A stretch of DNA of 64,000 nt from Sipunculus nudus (taxonomy: Eukaryota > Annelida > Sipuncula > Golfingiida > Sipunculidae). The notes under the pieces are model-generated. The model was not told where the DNA came from. It ran no database searches and saw nothing but the letters and a program-made list of their open reading frames with translations. Below are positions 12,681 through 64,000 of this stretch, piece after piece. Position 1 is the stretch's first letter; every line of letters starts with the position of its first letter. Made by a program: the position numbers and the translations under genes. The stretch is from positions 65,910,159-65,974,158 of the forward strand of contig CM049313.1 in assembly GCA_026874595.1 (NCBI GenBank). Direction: 5' to 3'.

Positions 12681-13568
12681 AGGAATTGTAACTATCAGCA
12701 TACAAAACTTACGTGTTTATGTATGGAGAACATATCATTACGCCTACAGGGGCGGATTTAGAAGGGGCAGGGTTGGACGCCATCTCCTTTTCGATCTAAC
12801 TTTTTTTTATAGGAAAATATACGATTAATTTAAAATATCACCGCCAGATTTTGCATTCAGCACCTTTTTTCTCGTTTTAAACCTGCATGCGAGAGTTATG
12901 TATAAGTTTACAAGTACTGTCGGAGAACTTGTTTTCCGCCCCCCCCCCCCACCCCCCTTCTAAGATCCTGTTTGCGCCCTTTTCGTTTATAAGAGGTTGT
13001 CCTCTTGCCATCTTTTATGTTCCAAGATTCTAGTTTGGCTTGCATATGTTCGACAGATACATTTTTAAAGAAATGATACATAAAAAACAGCATTCTTATA
13101 AATGTATATGTATCGCACGGTTTTCGGCAGAAAAAAATTGATTCTCAGGCATCGGTGGATAGAGCCGGAAGCGTCATGTATACGAATCCCGCAGGATGTA
13201 TGTCTCCATTGTATTATCGTCTGTTTGAGTCGGAATACTCAGATGAAGATTAATGGAATAAATATATATACACTTGTGCAGGAATCTGCAGTCCTTGTGG
13301 TTCACTTACACTAACCTGACCCTTTCCCTTTGGAAAGGACATATATATTTGAGCACGGATACAAGGACTGCGTGAATTATTAAACCGAGACTGGTAAAAC
13401 TATGTATCATTTTATGTGACATATCAGACCACTGACTGAGATAAAAAAAATATTCCAGTGTCTTTGTGTAGATGGGATTGCATTTTAAGTCCGCCTTTAG
13501 TCGAGACGGATAAAAAAGAATGTCGTTTTATCTGGCAGAAAGCTACTGCGTCTTAAACAGAGAAATGC
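12681..13568 (+). repeat. 888-bp direct duplication, copy A
   Basis: Matches 16752-17638 base for base from AGGAATTGTAACTATC to CAGAGAAATGC. The only differences seen are one substitution (T versus A near 12835 and 16907) and one C in the poly(C) tract. At 12747 it contains CAGGGGCGGATTTAGA, the start of a CAGGGGCG-type transposon terminus, and about 230 bp later a C tract followed by TCTAAGATCCTG, so a small degenerate MITE is embedded in it. No target-site duplication or inverted ends flank the whole unit. Confidence 0.9.
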
Positions 13569-16751: not shown

Positions 16752-17638
16752 AGGAATTGTAACTATCAGCATACAAAACTTACGTGTTTATGTATGGAGA
16801 ACATATCATTACGCCTACAGGGGCGGATTTAGAAGGGGCAGGGTTGGACGCCATCTCCTTTTCGATCTAACTTTTTTTTATAGGAAAATATACGATTAAT
16901 TTAAAAAATCACCGCCAGATTTTGCATTCAGCACCTTTTTTCTCGTTTTAAACCTGCATGCGAGAGTTATGTATAAGTTTACAAGTACTGTCGGAGAACT
17001 TGTTTTCCGCCCCCCCCCCCACCCCCCTTCTAAGATCCTGTTTGCGCCCTTTTCGTTTATAAGAGGTTGTCCTCTTGCCATCTTTTATGTTCCAAGATTC
17101 TAGTTTGGCTTGCATATGTTCGACAGATACATTTTTAAAGAAATGATACATAAAAAACAGCATTCTTATAAATGTATATGTATCGCACGGTTTTCGGCAG
17201 AAAAAAATTGATTCTCAGGCATCGGTGGATAGAGCCGGAAGCGTCATGTATACGAATCCCGCAGGATGTATGTCTCCATTGTATTATCGTCTGTTTGAGT
17301 CGGAATACTCAGATGAAGATTAATGGAATAAATATATATACACTTGTGCAGGAATCTGCAGTCCTTGTGGTTCACTTACACTAACCTGACCCTTTCCCTT
17401 TGGAAAGGACATATATATTTGAGCACGGATACAAGGACTGCGTGAATTATTAAACCGAGACTGGTAAAACTATGTATCATTTTATGTGACATATCAGACC
17501 ACTGACTGAGATAAAAAAAATATTCCAGTGTCTTTGTGTAGATGGGATTGCATTTTAAGTCCGCCTTTAGTCGAGACGGATAAAAAAGAATGTCGTTTTA
17601 TCTGGCAGAAAGCTACTGCGTCTTAAACAGAGAAATGC
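16752..17638 (+). repeat. 888-bp direct duplication, copy B
   Basis: Second copy of 12681-13568, same orientation, about 4,070 bp downstream, with about 99.8 percent identity by eye. The 12 bases on either side differ from those of copy A, so the boundaries are sharp. The small ORFs inside both copies are identical because the copies are, which is not evidence of coding function. Confidence 0.9.
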
Positions 17639-20649: not shown

Positions 20650-21748
20650 AGTTTGACCTGATTTTCTTTGACAGTTTTGAACCAGGATATTTGGACAGTA
20701 ATGGACCTGGATATTTGAACAATGTCGGAGCTTCTTATTTCGATAGTGATGGACCTGAATATTTTGACAGTGTTGGACCTGAACATTAGGACAGTGTTGG
20801 ACCTGAATATTTCAACAGTGTTGGACATGAATATAAGAACAGTGTTGGCCCTAGATATTTGGACAGTGTTGGACCTGAATATTTCGACGGTGTTTGACCT
20901 GGATATTTCGAAAGTGTTGGACCTGAATATTTTGAGAGCGTTAGACCAGGATATTTCGACAGTGTTGAACCTGGATATTTGGACTGTCTTGGACCCCAAT
21001 ATTTCGATAGTGTTGGACCCGAATATTAGGACAGGGTTGAACCCTGATATTTCGACAGTATTGGACCAGAACATTATTAGGACAGTGTTTGACCTGTATG
21101 TTTGGACAGCGTTTAACCTGAATATTTCGACGGTGTTTAACCTGAATATTTCGACGGTGTTTGACCTAAATATTTCGACTGTGTTGGACCTGAATATTTG
21201 GAGAGCGTTAGACCAGGATATTTCGACTGTGTTGGACGTAGATATTTGGACAGTGTTTAACCTAGATATTTGGACTGTGTTGGACCCTAATTTTTTCGAT
21301 AATGTTGGACCTGAATATTAGGAAAGGGTTGAACCTGGACATTTCGATATTGTTAGACCTGAATATTAGGACAGTGTTTGGCCTGAATATTTGGACAGCG
21401 TTGGACCTGAATATTTCGACGGTGTTTGACCTGGATCTTTGACTGTGTTTGACCTGAATATTTGGAGAGCGTAAGACCAGAATATTTGGACTGTTTTGGA
21501 CCTGAATATTTCGATAGTGTTGGATATAGATATTAGGACAGCGTTGGACCTGAATATATGGACAGTGTTGGATTTGAATATTAGGACCGAGTTGGACCTG
21601 GGTATTTCGACAGTGTTGGACATGAATATTTAGGGAGTGTTGGACCTGATTATTAGAACAGTGCTTGACCAGGATATTTCGACAGTGTTTCGACCTGAAT
21701 ATTTTGACTGCTAGTGTTCGATCTGAATATTTGGCCTGTGTTGGACCT
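20650..21748. repeat. 24-bp minisatellite, about 45 units
   Basis: The unit is close to GGACCTGAATATTTCG plus ACAGTGTT, with point differences and a few indels. Because 24 is a multiple of three, long frames stay open on both strands: 199 codons plus at 20722-21321, and 153 and 85 codons minus at 20613-21074 and 21366-21623. They translate as octapeptide repeats. The array abuts the stop codon of the minus-strand signal-peptide ORF at 21750. The open frames are most simply a by-product of the period. Confidence 0.95.
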
Positions 21749-37990: not shown

Positions 37991-37995
37991 AACAT

Positions 37996-38380
37996 TGTTA
38001 CGAAGACAAATAAATGAGGGGAAAATCCTGGGCCGATCCGGGAGTCGAACCCAGGTCGGTGGCGCACAAGTCCGGCGTACAACAACCGCTTCGCTAGCAA
38101 AGCATGCTTCTCTAGCGAGACAGTTCGGTCCGCTTTTATTTCACCCCGTAACACACCCCCTCTTAAAAGCGCTATCACAACAGGACTCATAATCCCAGGA
38201 GTCACACTTTGGTGAGCTTATTCCCTGGGCTACAAAGTTAACCGGTACGTTAGACGAGCCCCAATTTTGTTACGAAGACAAATTTTTGAGGGGAAAAAAC
38301 CTGGGCTGATCCCGGAGTCGAACCCAAAGCAAGTTTCGCTAGCGAGACAGTTTGGTCCGCTTTTATGTCACCCCGTAACA
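37996..38380 (-). mobile_element. complete TRIM retrotransposon with tRNA-like module in its LTR
   Basis: The element is 385 bp, begins TGTTACG and ends CGTAACA (TG...CA), and is flanked by ACAT on both sides (37992-37995, 38381-38384). Two direct repeats form LTRs: 37996-38153 (158 bp) and 38268-38380 (113 bp). They are alike at both ends, but the second lacks about 45 bp in the middle. Polarity is minus. After the 5' LTR comes a primer-binding-like site (minus TTGGGGCTCGTC, 38253-38264), 11 of 12 matches to the complement of a tRNA-Pro 3' end. Before the 3' LTR is a polypurine tract (minus AAGAGGGGG, 38156-38164). The internal region is only 114 bp and noncoding, so it must use another element's enzymes. 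Inside the 158-bp LTR a tRNA-like block carries an A-box (TAGCGAAGCGG, minus of 38086-38096) and a perfect B-box (GGTTCGACTCC, minus of 38041-38051), 45 nt apart as in a real tRNA. Confidence 0.85.
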
Positions 38381-38384
38381 ACAT

Positions 38385-51367: not shown

Positions 51368-51690
51368 TTTTATATTATTCCATAAAAATGTGGTTTGCTG
51401 TTACTGTTTGCTTAGAATTGTGCACCATTTGAAATTTTAAACTTTTCGGAAAAGTCAGAATTACATTTGAAAATGAATATGAACTTCTTAAATACATATA
51501 CCATAATAAAGAGTTCTGTACCAGGTCTCAAATGATATATACTTTATAAAGTCTGATATGCATATGATAAAGCCTTTGGATTGATTTTAGATTTAGGAGT
51601 TTTTACCCTAAATTGCACAAATCGCACTAGTAGAAACTACGACTTAACAAGAAATGATTTTATTTTACAATCCAGTCCGATTAGATCGGA
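51368..51690. other. no gene seen
   Basis: AT-rich anonymous spacer. Confidence 0.5.
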
Positions 51691-52760
51691 TGTTGATTTA
51701 CGCTATATATAGACTTCCTGGTTGTTCTACAGGATTGCTCCTCCTATTAATGCTCCGACAGTAGGAGGGGAGGCTTATAGGGGTTCCGATCTTGATTTAC
51801 GCTATGTAGACTTCCTGGTTGTTCTCCAGGATTGCTCCTCCTATTAATGCTCCGACAGTAGGAGGGGAGGCTTATAGGGGTTCCGATGTTGATTTACGCT
51901 ATATAGACTTCCTCTTTGTTCTCCAGGATTGCTCCTCCTATTACGTCTCCGACAGTAGGAGGGGAGGATTATAGGGGTTCCGATGTTGATTTACGCTATA
52001 TAGAAATCCTGGTTGTTCTCCAGGATTGCTCCTCCTATTAAGGTTCCGACAGTAGGAGGGGAGGCTTACAGGGGTTCCGATCTTGATTTACGCTATATAG
52101 ACTTCCTGGTTGTTCTACAGGATTGCTCCTCCTATTAATGCTCCGACAGTAGGAAGGGAGGCTTATAGGGGTTCCGATGTTGATTTATGCTATATAGACT
52201 TCCTGGTTGTTCTACAGGATTGCTCCTCCTATTACGTCTCTGCCGGTAGGAGGGTAGGCCAATAGGGGTTCCGATGTTGATTAACGCTATATAGACTTCC
52301 TGTTTGTTCTCCAGGATTGCTTCTCCTATTACGTCTCTGCCGGTAGGAGGGGAGGCTTATAGGGGTTCCGATGTTGATTTACGCTATATAGACTTCCTGG
52401 TTGTTCTACAGGATTGCAATTCCTATTACGTCTCTGCCGGTAGGAGGGGAGGCTTATTGGGGTTCCGATGTTGATTTACGCTATATACACTTCATGGTTG
52501 TTCTACAGGATTACTCCTCCTATTAAGGCTCCGACAGTAGGAGGGGAGGCTTAAAAGGGTTCCGATGTTGATTTGCGCTATATAGACTTCCTGGTTGATC
52601 TATAGGAATACTCCTCCTATTAAGTCTCTGCCGGTAGGAGGGGAGGCCTATAGGGGTTCCGATGTTGATTTACGCTATATAGACTTCCTGGTAATTCTCC
52701 AGGATTGCTCCTCCTATTACGTCTCTGCCAGTAGGACGTGATGGTTTATAGGGGTTGATG
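51691..52760. repeat. 97-bp tandem repeat with internal hairpin, about 11 units
   Basis: Units start GTTGATTTACGCTATATAGA at 51692, 51791, 51888, 51985 and 52082, giving a 97-bp period, and continue to about 52760. Each unit holds CTCCTCCTATTA followed 13-20 bp later by TAGGAGGGGAGG, a stem of about 9 bp. The loop is the variable part (AATGCTCCGACAG versus ACGTCTCTGCCGG). Units are about 90-97 percent alike, so the array is fairly young, and some units share both loop types in alternation. Confidence 0.95.
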
Positions 52761-60908: not shown

Positions 60909-63666
60909 TTAATTTGTGTTTTCCTGTAGTATGTTAAGTGGGGTTATGTGTTTGTTTTTAGGTTTAGTTCTTCTATGTGTAGTGATTATTTCAGCAATTT
61001 TGGGATTGTTATTAATTCTTTTGTAGGCGTTTGTTGATTGTTCTGTTATGTAGTCTAGTATTTTTAGTGTATTTGTTTGTTCTCTTAAGATGTTGGTATT
61101 GGTTCTTCTCCTTGCTCTTAGGATGGCTCGGAGTGCATTGTCTTGTTGTACCTCTAATTTTTTTAGGTAAGTTTTGGGGGCACCTAGGAAGGCTATGGAT
61201 CCATATGTGCCTATTGGGCGGATCCATTGTTTGTATAGGTAGGTGGCGGTCTCGATGGAGGGCCCTTCTCTCAGTCTGCACACTTTTTTAAGGGCATTTG
61301 TGCGTTGCCACATTCTGTGTGTTATGTCTTCTATGTGTGTTTTCCAATTGGCTCTTTCATCAAAAGTAAGGCCTAGGAATTTTGCAGTTTTGGATTCTTT
61401 GAGGTCTTTCTCTTGTAATTCGAAGGTTTCAAACCATTTGTTTTTTATGGCCTTGGTGAATAAAACTGTTTGGGTTTTGTCTGGGTTAAGTTTTATTCTC
61501 CATCTGTTGCACCAGTTACTGATGCGGTCTAATTGGGCTTGTACCATGGTGCCAGCAAGTTCGGATTTCTTGCTGGTTGTTCATATGGCTATGTCGTCAG
61601 CAAATTGTGACACTTGGGCCTGCTGGCTGGTTTTTGGTAGGTCATTTACATATATTATAAACAGTACTGGACTCAGGACTGAGCCTTGGGGAGTTCCAGC
61701 CTGTAGTGTTATTTCTCTGGAGTGGGTGCTATTTATGTTTACTTTGAGAGTTCTATCTTGTAGAAATGATGATAAAATTCTAATAAATTTGTTTGGGAGT
61801 TTGGTTCTCATGAGTTTAAGTCTCAGTCCTTCAATCCAGACTGCATCGAAAGCCTTTTCCACATCGAGGAATGTGGCTAGTGTGGCTTCGGATTTTTGGA
61901 ATCCATTGTGGATTGATTGACTTAGTCTGAATAGTTGATCTATAGTGGACCTACCTGCATGTTTTAAAACCTGCCTGGTTTTCATTAAAGAAGGGACCGC
62001 CTAATTCTTGGGCTCTGTTGTTGAGGAAATTTGTAATTTTGTTTTTTATTATTTTTTTAAATAGTTTTCCTAGGCATGGGAGAAGGCTAATTGGCCTGTG
62101 GTTTTTAGGTAATTCTGTGTCTTTGTTTGGTTTAGGAATCATGGTGACTAGAGCAGTTTTCCATACTGCTGGGAAGTAGCCCCATGTCAGGCATAGGTTA
62201 TAAAGGCTTGCAATTTTGTAAAATCCTATGTCTGGTACCTTTTTAAGTATTTTGTAGTTTATTTTATCTATTCCTGGGGCTGATTTTCCTTTGCATGTGT
62301 TTAGTGCTCTTTTTATTTCTATTATTGAGATGGGCCGAGCAGTGTCGGAGTCATCTCCTGGTTCTGTGGTGGGTTGGTTTAGTGGAGTGAATAAAGTTTT
62401 GATAATATCTAAGACTTCATTGACTTGTTGTTTGAATTTGTCATCATAGTGTTCATTTTCTGGTGTTTTATGTATATTTTCTAGTGTTTCAGCGAATAAA
62501 TCTGCCCTCTCATTTGCTGTAGTAGCTGTTGAGCCATCTGGGCGTGTCAGAGTTTTGATTTTGCCGGTGTTTGGGTTTAATTGGGAATCCAGAAATCCCC
62601 TAAGTTTGTAGTGTGGTCTAAGCCTGTAATGTATTCATTCCACTGTTTTCTTTTTTGTGCTAGGATTGAGTCTTTTACTTGTTTACTGAGGTAGTTATAC
62701 TGTGTTTTGTCATCTGGGTGGCTAGTGGTCTTATATTTTGTCCTGGCTTTTCTTCTAAGTTTTACCAGGTGTTTTATGTCTGGGGTAAATTTCCACGAGT
62801 TTCTGTTTGTTACTTCTTGTTCTGGTGCTACTGTGTCTATTGCTTTTTTTATGATGTTTGTGATGCTATCAACTACTATGTCAATTTGTGTGTGTGATAT
62901 TATGAGGGAGTTATTGGGGTCTATCATGTTTTCTGTTATTATTTTATTAAATTTTTTTGGAGGTTTCTATATAATTTTGGTGGGTTGATTATTGGTTGCC
63001 AGTCTAATTTTGTATGTATGGGGTGGTGGTCTGAGTCTAGGTCCTCCCCAACACTGAAGTCTGCGACTATAGCGACATCTGGTGAGGATATTGCTAAGTC
63101 GAGTATATTCCATTGGCCTGTTGTGTTTTGTGTAAAAGTGGGTTCTGTGTTATTTATTAGCACTAGACTGCCGTCAGACGTTTCGTCCATTAGTATTTTC
63201 CCTGATGTGTTTGTGTACCTGGCACCATATTGTGTATGTGGGGAGTTTAGGTCTCCCATTATGATGAAGTGTGGGCTTTTGCTTTTAATTTTCCTGAAAA
63301 TTTCTTTATTTATTTTTTCTTGTGTGGGTTATAGTAGGCAATTATGTCTAGGAATGGCATATTGCCTTCTATACCATTTATTCTGATTGATAGGATTTCA
63401 TCCTCTGTGTTGTTAAACCAGTTATTGATGGAGTAGTCAAGTTTGCTGTTAATAGCATTGGCTACTCCGCCTCCTTTATCCTCCCTGTCTTTTCGACATA
63501 GGGTGTAGTTTCCCAGTGAGAAATGGGAGCTTGGTGATAGCTTTGTTTCTGTAAATAAGGCTATGTCTGTTTTGTGATCTGTTAGGTAGTTTAATATTTC
63601 ATTTTGTTTATTCTCTATAGAATTTGCATTTAGATGCATTATTTTTATTGCGCTTTGTTTATTCAT
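60909..63666 (-). pseudogene. Jockey-like LINE ORF2 (endonuclease and reverse transcriptase), broken
   Basis: An intact frame from ATG 63666 to TAA 60909 would encode about 919 residues, normal for this family. The N-terminal AP-like endonuclease nicks target DNA: M-H-L-N-A-N-S-I, then F-T-E-T-K-L, later G-D-L-N-S-P-H, D-L-A-I-S-S-P and S-D-H-H-P-I. The central reverse transcriptase copies the RNA at the nick: N-H-R-P-I-S-L-L, F-L-D-V-E-K-A-F-D-A-V-W, A-G-T-P-Q-G-S-V-L-S-P and the catalytic F-A-D-D. The C-terminal part shows L-N-P-D-K-T and K-F-L-G-L-T-F-D and no RNase H, fitting the Jockey group. It is broken by frameshifts near 63320, 62950, 62600 and 61970, mostly at A/T runs, and by an in-frame TGA at 61581-61583 where Trp is expected after A-D-D-I-A-I. 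It therefore cannot make a working enzyme as read. Confidence 0.93.
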
Positions 63667-64000
63667 GTTGTTTTGTGTTGGTTGTGGGTTGAAAGTTAAT
63701 TTTGATGCGTCGTGTTTTTGGTGGGTATAGTGTTATTTTCATTTGTGTGTTTTGTGTTGTTTGTTGGTTGCACCCTGGTTGGTCTCTCCATTTTTCCAGG
63801 TTTTTTTATTTTTCTATATCCTCATTAGAGTTGCACCAGAAGGTGACAACTCCTTTGTAGGCGTTGTAATAGGTATTCTTAATGGTGTGTTTTGGATATA
63901 CTTCTCTGATTATGTTTGCCATGTTTATTTCGTTTTGTGCCGTGACGGGGTCAATTCCTGCCACTGACACTGGTTTCAGGGTTTTTTTCTCTGTTTTGTT
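63659..64000 (-). pseudogene. LINE ORF1 (gag-like), 3' part, cut by window edge
   Basis: One minus-strand frame runs in from the window edge (V-S-V-A-G-I-D-P-V-T-A-Q-N then I-I-R-E-V-Y-P and G-V-V-T-F-W-C), reaches TAA at 63806-63808, and stays open beyond it. It ends at TAA 63659-63661, which overlaps the ORF2 start in the octamer ATGAATAA. The natural end is therefore inferred to be 63659, with the earlier TAA a nonsense mutation. ORF1 of such elements encodes the RNA-binding protein of the retrotransposition particle. The visible part looks like an alpha/beta RNA-binding fold (RRM or PRE_C2HC type), though this is unconfirmed. Zinc knuckles are not visible in the portion present. Confidence 0.7.

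Follow-up and report, generated by a model that had tools for sequence, protein, structure and literature searches.

A Helenus-type TRIM with tRNA-like A and B boxes in its LTR, abundant in the genome of the sipunculan Sipunculus nudus

TRIM retrotransposons that harbour tRNA-derived sequence in their LTRs, along with a primer-binding site, a polypurine tract and 4-bp target-site duplications, have been described from animals under the name Helenus (Kojima 2024, PMC10886601). According to the available part of this article, Helenus elements range in length from 311 to 1263 bp, the molluscan families occur in five orders of Pteriomorphia, and the bivalve families employ tRNA-Lys, His, Ile, Pro, Glu or Ser as primers. 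The animal elements are assigned to Gypsy, Gypsy-13_CGi being the tRNA-Pro user among those of bivalves, and tandem arrays are reported for zebrafish LTR-11_DR (PMC10886601). Few Helenus elements are able to encode a tRNA, and in the available text of that description, too, their transcription by polymerase III (pol III) is unproven. In a literature search on Helenus and TRIMp3, Kojima 2024 (PMC10886601) was the sole relevant description found.

Here we analyse a TRIM from Sipunculus nudus, which lies in a stretch of 64,000 nucleotides (assembly GCA_026874595.1, contig CM049313.1, positions 65,910,159 to 65,974,158 of the forward strand), termed "the window" in the following. The element occupies window positions 37996-38380, and with high confidence we consider it one old copy of a high-copy, non-autonomous TRIM family, which is of the Helenus kind by architecture and contains an A/B-box module in its LTR. 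Like Helenus, the element is a short TRIM devoid of coding capacity; its LTR harbours A and B boxes, and a primer site and a purine tract are present. The 4-bp duplications, the tRNA-Pro primer known from bivalve families, the solo LTRs and the tandem arrays are likewise shared (PMC10886601, available part). This likeness is one of architecture, and the A box of the window copy reads TAGCG, whereas most Helenus elements have TRGCY in the available text of PMC10886601.

Other TRIMs resemble the window element in part. Cassandra of plants also carries a pol III-type promoter sequence in its LTR and forms tandem arrays, yet its LTR harbours 5S rRNA sequence (PMC7215508, available part), whereas in the window neither 5S nor any other Rfam family attains its gathering score; a Cassandra-like 5S module is rejected on this ground. 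Ajax of nemerteans is similar in having the promoter of a small-RNA gene in its LTR, but according to the accessible text it is 5S-derived and generates 5-bp duplications (PMC10886601). Finally, the bivalve biv-TRIM elements share the tandem arrays and solo repeats; as far as the available text goes, their repeats measure 202-218 bp and their inner domain 77-80 bp, and TGATCCCAAAGGAC is present in all species but one (Satovic 2019, PMC6934838). Identity with biv-TRIM is rejected, since the LTR of the present family measures about 156 bp and the interior about 117 bp, and TGATCCCAAAGGAC is absent from the window.

What is new about the window TRIM is therefore the copy and perhaps the family to which it belongs, whereas the kind has already been published as Helenus. 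An earlier note on this DNA, which knew of no named family, is superseded in this respect, since the name was already in use for such elements (Kojima 2024, PMC10886601, available part). No new class is opened. Rather, raw sequence confirms the abundance, in an animal genome, of TRIMs whose LTRs carry a tRNA-like promoter, a well-sampled family becomes available for testing the use of pol III by an LTR element, and caution is advised, as A/B-box matches in such genomes can be LTRs.

The 385-bp element is composed of an LTR, an interior and a second LTR on the minus strand. The 5' LTR (113 bp, 38268-38380) is followed by a non-coding interior of 114 bp (38154-38267), which recurs in the host genome, and by the 3' LTR (158 bp, 37996-38153), of which genome copies likewise exist. 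Both LTRs start with TGTTACG and end with CGTAACA, and the element is flanked by the target-site duplication ACAT at 37992-37995 and 38381-38384. The primer-binding site TTGGGGCTCGTC (38253-38264, minus strand) starts 3 nt inside from the end of the 5' LTR and agrees at 11 of 12 positions with the 12-mer of the tRNA-Pro primer site. It is the only one among 127,976 places on both window strands that matches at 11 or more positions. The polypurine tract AAGAGGGGG (38156-38164, minus strand) is located directly ahead of the 3' LTR. Every polar feature is oriented along the minus strand, which identifies the repeat of 113 bp as the 5' LTR.

The whole tRNA-like module is retained in the 3' LTR, where the A box TAGCGAAGCGG (38086-38096) and the B box GGTTCGACTCC (38041-38051), both on the minus strand, lie 45 nt apart. 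This is the sole A/B pair with a spacing of 25-90 nt in the window, while 60 simulated windows with the same neighbour frequencies contained a mean of 0.017 and a maximum of 1 such pair. A second B box GGTTCGACTCC is found in the 5' LTR (38314-38324, minus strand). A search against the window aligned the LTRs of this copy with each other in two blocks (E 4.6e-17 and 1.9e-15). The TRIM structure in the window is real and beyond chance. The earlier note had recognized these repeats, the duplication, the purine tract, the interior and their common polarity at exact coordinates, and its primer site and its pair of boxes in the longer LTR are borne out as well.

The same note had called the element complete, which is too strong. 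The 5' LTR lacks 46 bp, the counterpart of 38052-38097 in the 3' LTR (minus strand), and with this segment the A box is gone, while the B box is kept. The outer portions of both LTRs align on either side of the 46-bp difference, and by eye a TG is present both ahead of the lost block and at its end; therefore, a deletion from the 5' LTR is simpler than an insertion into the 3' LTR. At 11 of the 112 aligned sites the two LTRs differ (K2P 0.105 in the pairwise comparison, 0.126 in the multi-locus alignment), and thus the window copy is old and decayed. Moreover, a T6 run lies downstream of the B box in its 5' LTR. Without an A box and with this T6 run, the window copy is probably dead, and a pol III start from its 5' LTR is probably not possible.

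The host assembly (1,426,538,692 bases, 153 contigs) was searched with the whole element, the 3' LTR and the interior, which returned at least 2744, 2265 and 808 first-look candidates, respectively, unconfirmed as copies; 40 candidates were scored per query. Of the 90 loci obtained, 12 overlapped others, which left 78 distinct loci including the window copy; two of these (L035 and L037) are apparently copies of one 9-kb segment and hence not independent. The 78 loci comprise 44 copies of LTR-interior-LTR structure, 18 arrays with at least three LTRs, 11 solo LTRs and 5 partial copies, and the typical dimensions of LTR and interior given above refer to these sampled loci.

An exact 4-bp duplication flanks 37 of the 65 loci that have both outer ends, compared with an average of 6.8 and never more than 14 when flanks were paired at random (1000 trials). 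The duplications are A/T-rich, ATAT accounting for 11 of the 37, and they are distributed over two-LTR loci (26/38), arrays (8/16) and solo LTRs (3/11). Loci found with the LTR query are the poorest in duplications (5/19; two-LTR 1/7, solo 3/11). In 84 interiors, the primer site, taken as the best of 10 offsets, matches at 12 of 12 positions in 55 cases, at 11 in 23 and at fewer in 6, and a purine run of at least 9 is present near the interior's end in 78. A primer site of at least 11/12 in 78 of the 84 interiors thus joins the LTRs, the boxes and the duplications as a feature by which Helenus is recognized. Genome-wide, 1002 exact places combine an AACA end with a tRNA-Pro primer site that starts no more than 5 nt further on; some of these places may belong outside this TRIM family, and the reversed control gave none. 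Exact LTR patterns gave no matches in collections of viral contigs and of genome contigs.

The distance between the LTRs of one element ranges from 0.026 to 0.171 in 38 two-LTR loci (median 0.100), and the median distance between elements is 0.118. The TRIM family is old and abundant in the host genome. Its copies lend good support to the proposal of the earlier note that the element corresponds, among animals, to Cassandra and has an LTR derived from tRNA, and the target duplications that this note had suggested looking for in a genome search are present at more than half of the end-complete loci.

Among the sampled copies, three on one contig (L035, L036 and L037, C17 near 38.07-38.09 Mb) are near-identical and spaced by about 9 kb, a recurrence which suggests that these TRIMs were probably carried along in a segmental tandem duplication. 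At a further locus (L082), a stretch of about 0.8 kb that is not part of the TRIM splits the 3' LTR near its start; by eye, this stretch starts with TGTTACG, ends with AACA and has ACAT on either side. The interruption looks like the nested insertion of an element that has similar termini and duplicated 4 bp of its target.

Of the 145 sampled LTRs that have both ends, 120 contain the A box, 105 the B box and 83 both boxes. In 76 of these 83 LTRs the spacing of the boxes is 43 nt. Recurrence across the sampled LTRs implies that the tRNA-like module belongs to the family; the earlier note had proposed checking whether it is present in most LTRs. The contrary outcome, an A/B block unique to one copy, did not occur. 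Ranked by column conservation among 146 sliding windows, the A box takes place 29 and the B box place 76, and no clear excess of conservation sets the boxes apart from the other LTR columns. Decay of the copies after insertion would give such ranks regardless of the role of the boxes, and hence selection on the boxes is not inferable.

ARAGORN found no tRNA in the window at its normal threshold, and together with the Rfam result at gathering scores this led us to reject a functional tRNA gene. With a lowered threshold, ARAGORN called a 95-nt tRNA-like sequence at 38018-38112 that spans both boxes, but three other calls in the same 600 bases leave this one with little weight. The T-arm region produced Rfam scores below gathering for mascRNA (E 0.39) and tmRNA (E 0.0065) in 501 bases searched. 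The earlier note had proposed a tRNA/SINE predictor for the consensus. Among the copies, ARAGORN, run on 60 of the 78 loci, found no tRNA in any of them, and Rfam, run on 20 loci, matched no tRNA family with an E-value of 1 or below. The T-stem around TTCGACT noted previously forms when the segment is folded alone (38038-38054, minus strand), as a T-arm-like hairpin with 5 pairs, one of them G-U, and a 7-nt loop; it is absent from the fold of the predicted transcript. Compared with shuffled sequences, the whole LTR folds only modestly better (z -2.46, 4/200 as good), with z -0.85 for the 5' LTR of the window copy and -1.52 for the other strand, and the predicted pol III transcript folds no better than single-letter shuffles (z +0.32). 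A structured RNA is therefore not claimed.

How the family is transcribed bears on an alternative that we rate as possible, yet rather less than an even chance. The same TRIM family could be transcribed by polymerase II (pol II) from the TATA-like ATAAAAG at LTR position 15, the tRNA-like module being an inherited passenger or a regulator. Each LTR of the window copy indeed has ATAAA at position 15, and this account fits with box columns whose conservation does not clearly exceed that of the remaining LTR. It is also favoured by the T-runs, which would hamper full-length pol III transcripts: downstream of the B box, 79 of the 89 full-length B-box LTRs have a run of T4-T6, which is T4 in 66 of them. 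For pol III, the run in the 5' LTR precedes the interior, so that a full-length RNA requires read-through. Judged from the sequence, these runs should end most pol III transcripts inside the 5' LTR, and many short LTR RNAs alongside rare full-length RNA would be expected. On the other hand, the A/B spacing of 43 nt in 76 of the 83 LTRs argues against a mere passenger; other Helenus families are alike in this respect, with conservation around their boxes being reported (PMC10886601, available part), and the use of both polymerases is conceivable.

A further alternative concerns the origin of the family. A Helenus-type architecture might have arisen here independently of the named families, via a SINE inserted into a local TRIM, a scenario that we regard as doubtful though well within reach. 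Kojima argues for several separate origins of Helenus in the available text (PMC10886601), and LTR and interior were set beside Helenus by architecture rather than against consensus sequences. Yet, Helenus is defined by architecture, and a family of independent origin would still be filed there.

The element could also be regarded as two tandem tRNA-derived SINEs rather than an LTR element, in keeping with A/B boxes, repeated units and the arrays at 18 of the 78 loci. This reading is highly improbable in view of the TG...CA ends, the exact 4-bp duplications, the well-placed primer site and purine tract and the solo LTRs, and no A-rich or T-rich tail flanks the window copy. Genome copies with LTR, primer-site and purine-tract anatomy refute it; single repeats lacking these parts and the interior, the pattern that the earlier note would have read as a tandem SINE, did not emerge. 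Equally improbable is a copy of one autonomous Gypsy element that lost internal sequence and by chance received a tRNA-like insertion in one of its LTRs. Such an origin would explain that only one window LTR has an A box, but it is refuted by the genome copies, since the sampled loci have in common the A/B module and an interior close to 117 bp. In addition, the window LTRs can be aligned to the left and to the right of the 46-bp difference.

For the Helenus-type TRIM family favoured here, a replication route can be proposed. A source copy would be transcribed from the tRNA-like module of its 5' LTR, probably by pol III, and reverse transcription would be primed by a host tRNA-Pro. The enzymes would come from an autonomous Gypsy element, whose proteins would also integrate the DNA and thereby duplicate 4 bp of the target. 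The integrase zinc-binding domain PF17921 served as an indicator of Gypsy-like elements; 150 of 6033 candidates in the host genome were scored, while the control genomes were without a match, and 29 of the 150 scored matches lie in open frames of more than 1000 codons. Of 25 integrase matches that could be compared with primer sites (C1 and part of C2, covering 100 of the 1002 sites), one lay within 12 kb of a tRNA-Pro primer site, though in the wrong orientation, and none had a site in the right one; on these stretches no autonomous partner was found. Of other protein families sought in the host genome, C1q gave 141 matches, whereas mollusc haemocyanin and abalone lysin gave none; as the control genomes (14 for the latter two) were again without a match, these negative results do not establish absence.

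The A box is situated in the 3' arm of a 42-nt imperfect palindrome (38084-38125, minus strand), with a predicted hairpin of -19.2 kcal/mol. In 27 of the 145 LTRs we counted 29 deletions of at least 8 bp, whose coverage peaks at LTR columns 31-56, inside the palindrome; the map is affected by the gap placement of the aligner and the choice of query. It is a tentative and rather unlikely suggestion that the A-box palindrome is a deletion hot spot, in which case the element may tend to lose its own promoter, with a turnover of promoter-bearing and promoter-less LTRs. At two-LTR loci, 11 deletions were found in 9 of 41 first LTRs and 4 in 4 of 41 second LTRs, an asymmetry that is biased because the query itself carried such a deletion; in loci found with the interior query alone, the numbers by eye are 3 and 2. 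In two arrays (L087 and L089), the outer LTRs are both deleted over the A-box palindrome, in L087 over the same span. Such arrays suggest that deleted LTRs might be duplicated, or spread by conversion, from one array position to another.

Several other repeats share the window with the TRIM. An 888-bp direct repeat is present at 12681-13568 and 16752-17638, the copies being 99.8% identical and 4071 bp apart. Neither copy has a TG start, and no open reading frame of at least 110 aa is listed between them; the repeat may represent a recent duplication, a non-autonomous element or an assembly effect. The region 20651-21748 is a tandem array of about 45 copies of a 24-bp unit with long open frames on both strands, as is possible when the repeat period is divisible by three. 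A satellite-like array with 11 copies of a 97-bp unit (89% matches) extends from 51689 to 52756. Finally, the minus strand at 60909-63732 contains a LINE-like non-LTR retrotransposon, in which endonuclease and reverse-transcriptase domains are spread across several frames (Pfam Exo_endo_phos_2, E 1e-16; RVT_1, E 9.5e-23).
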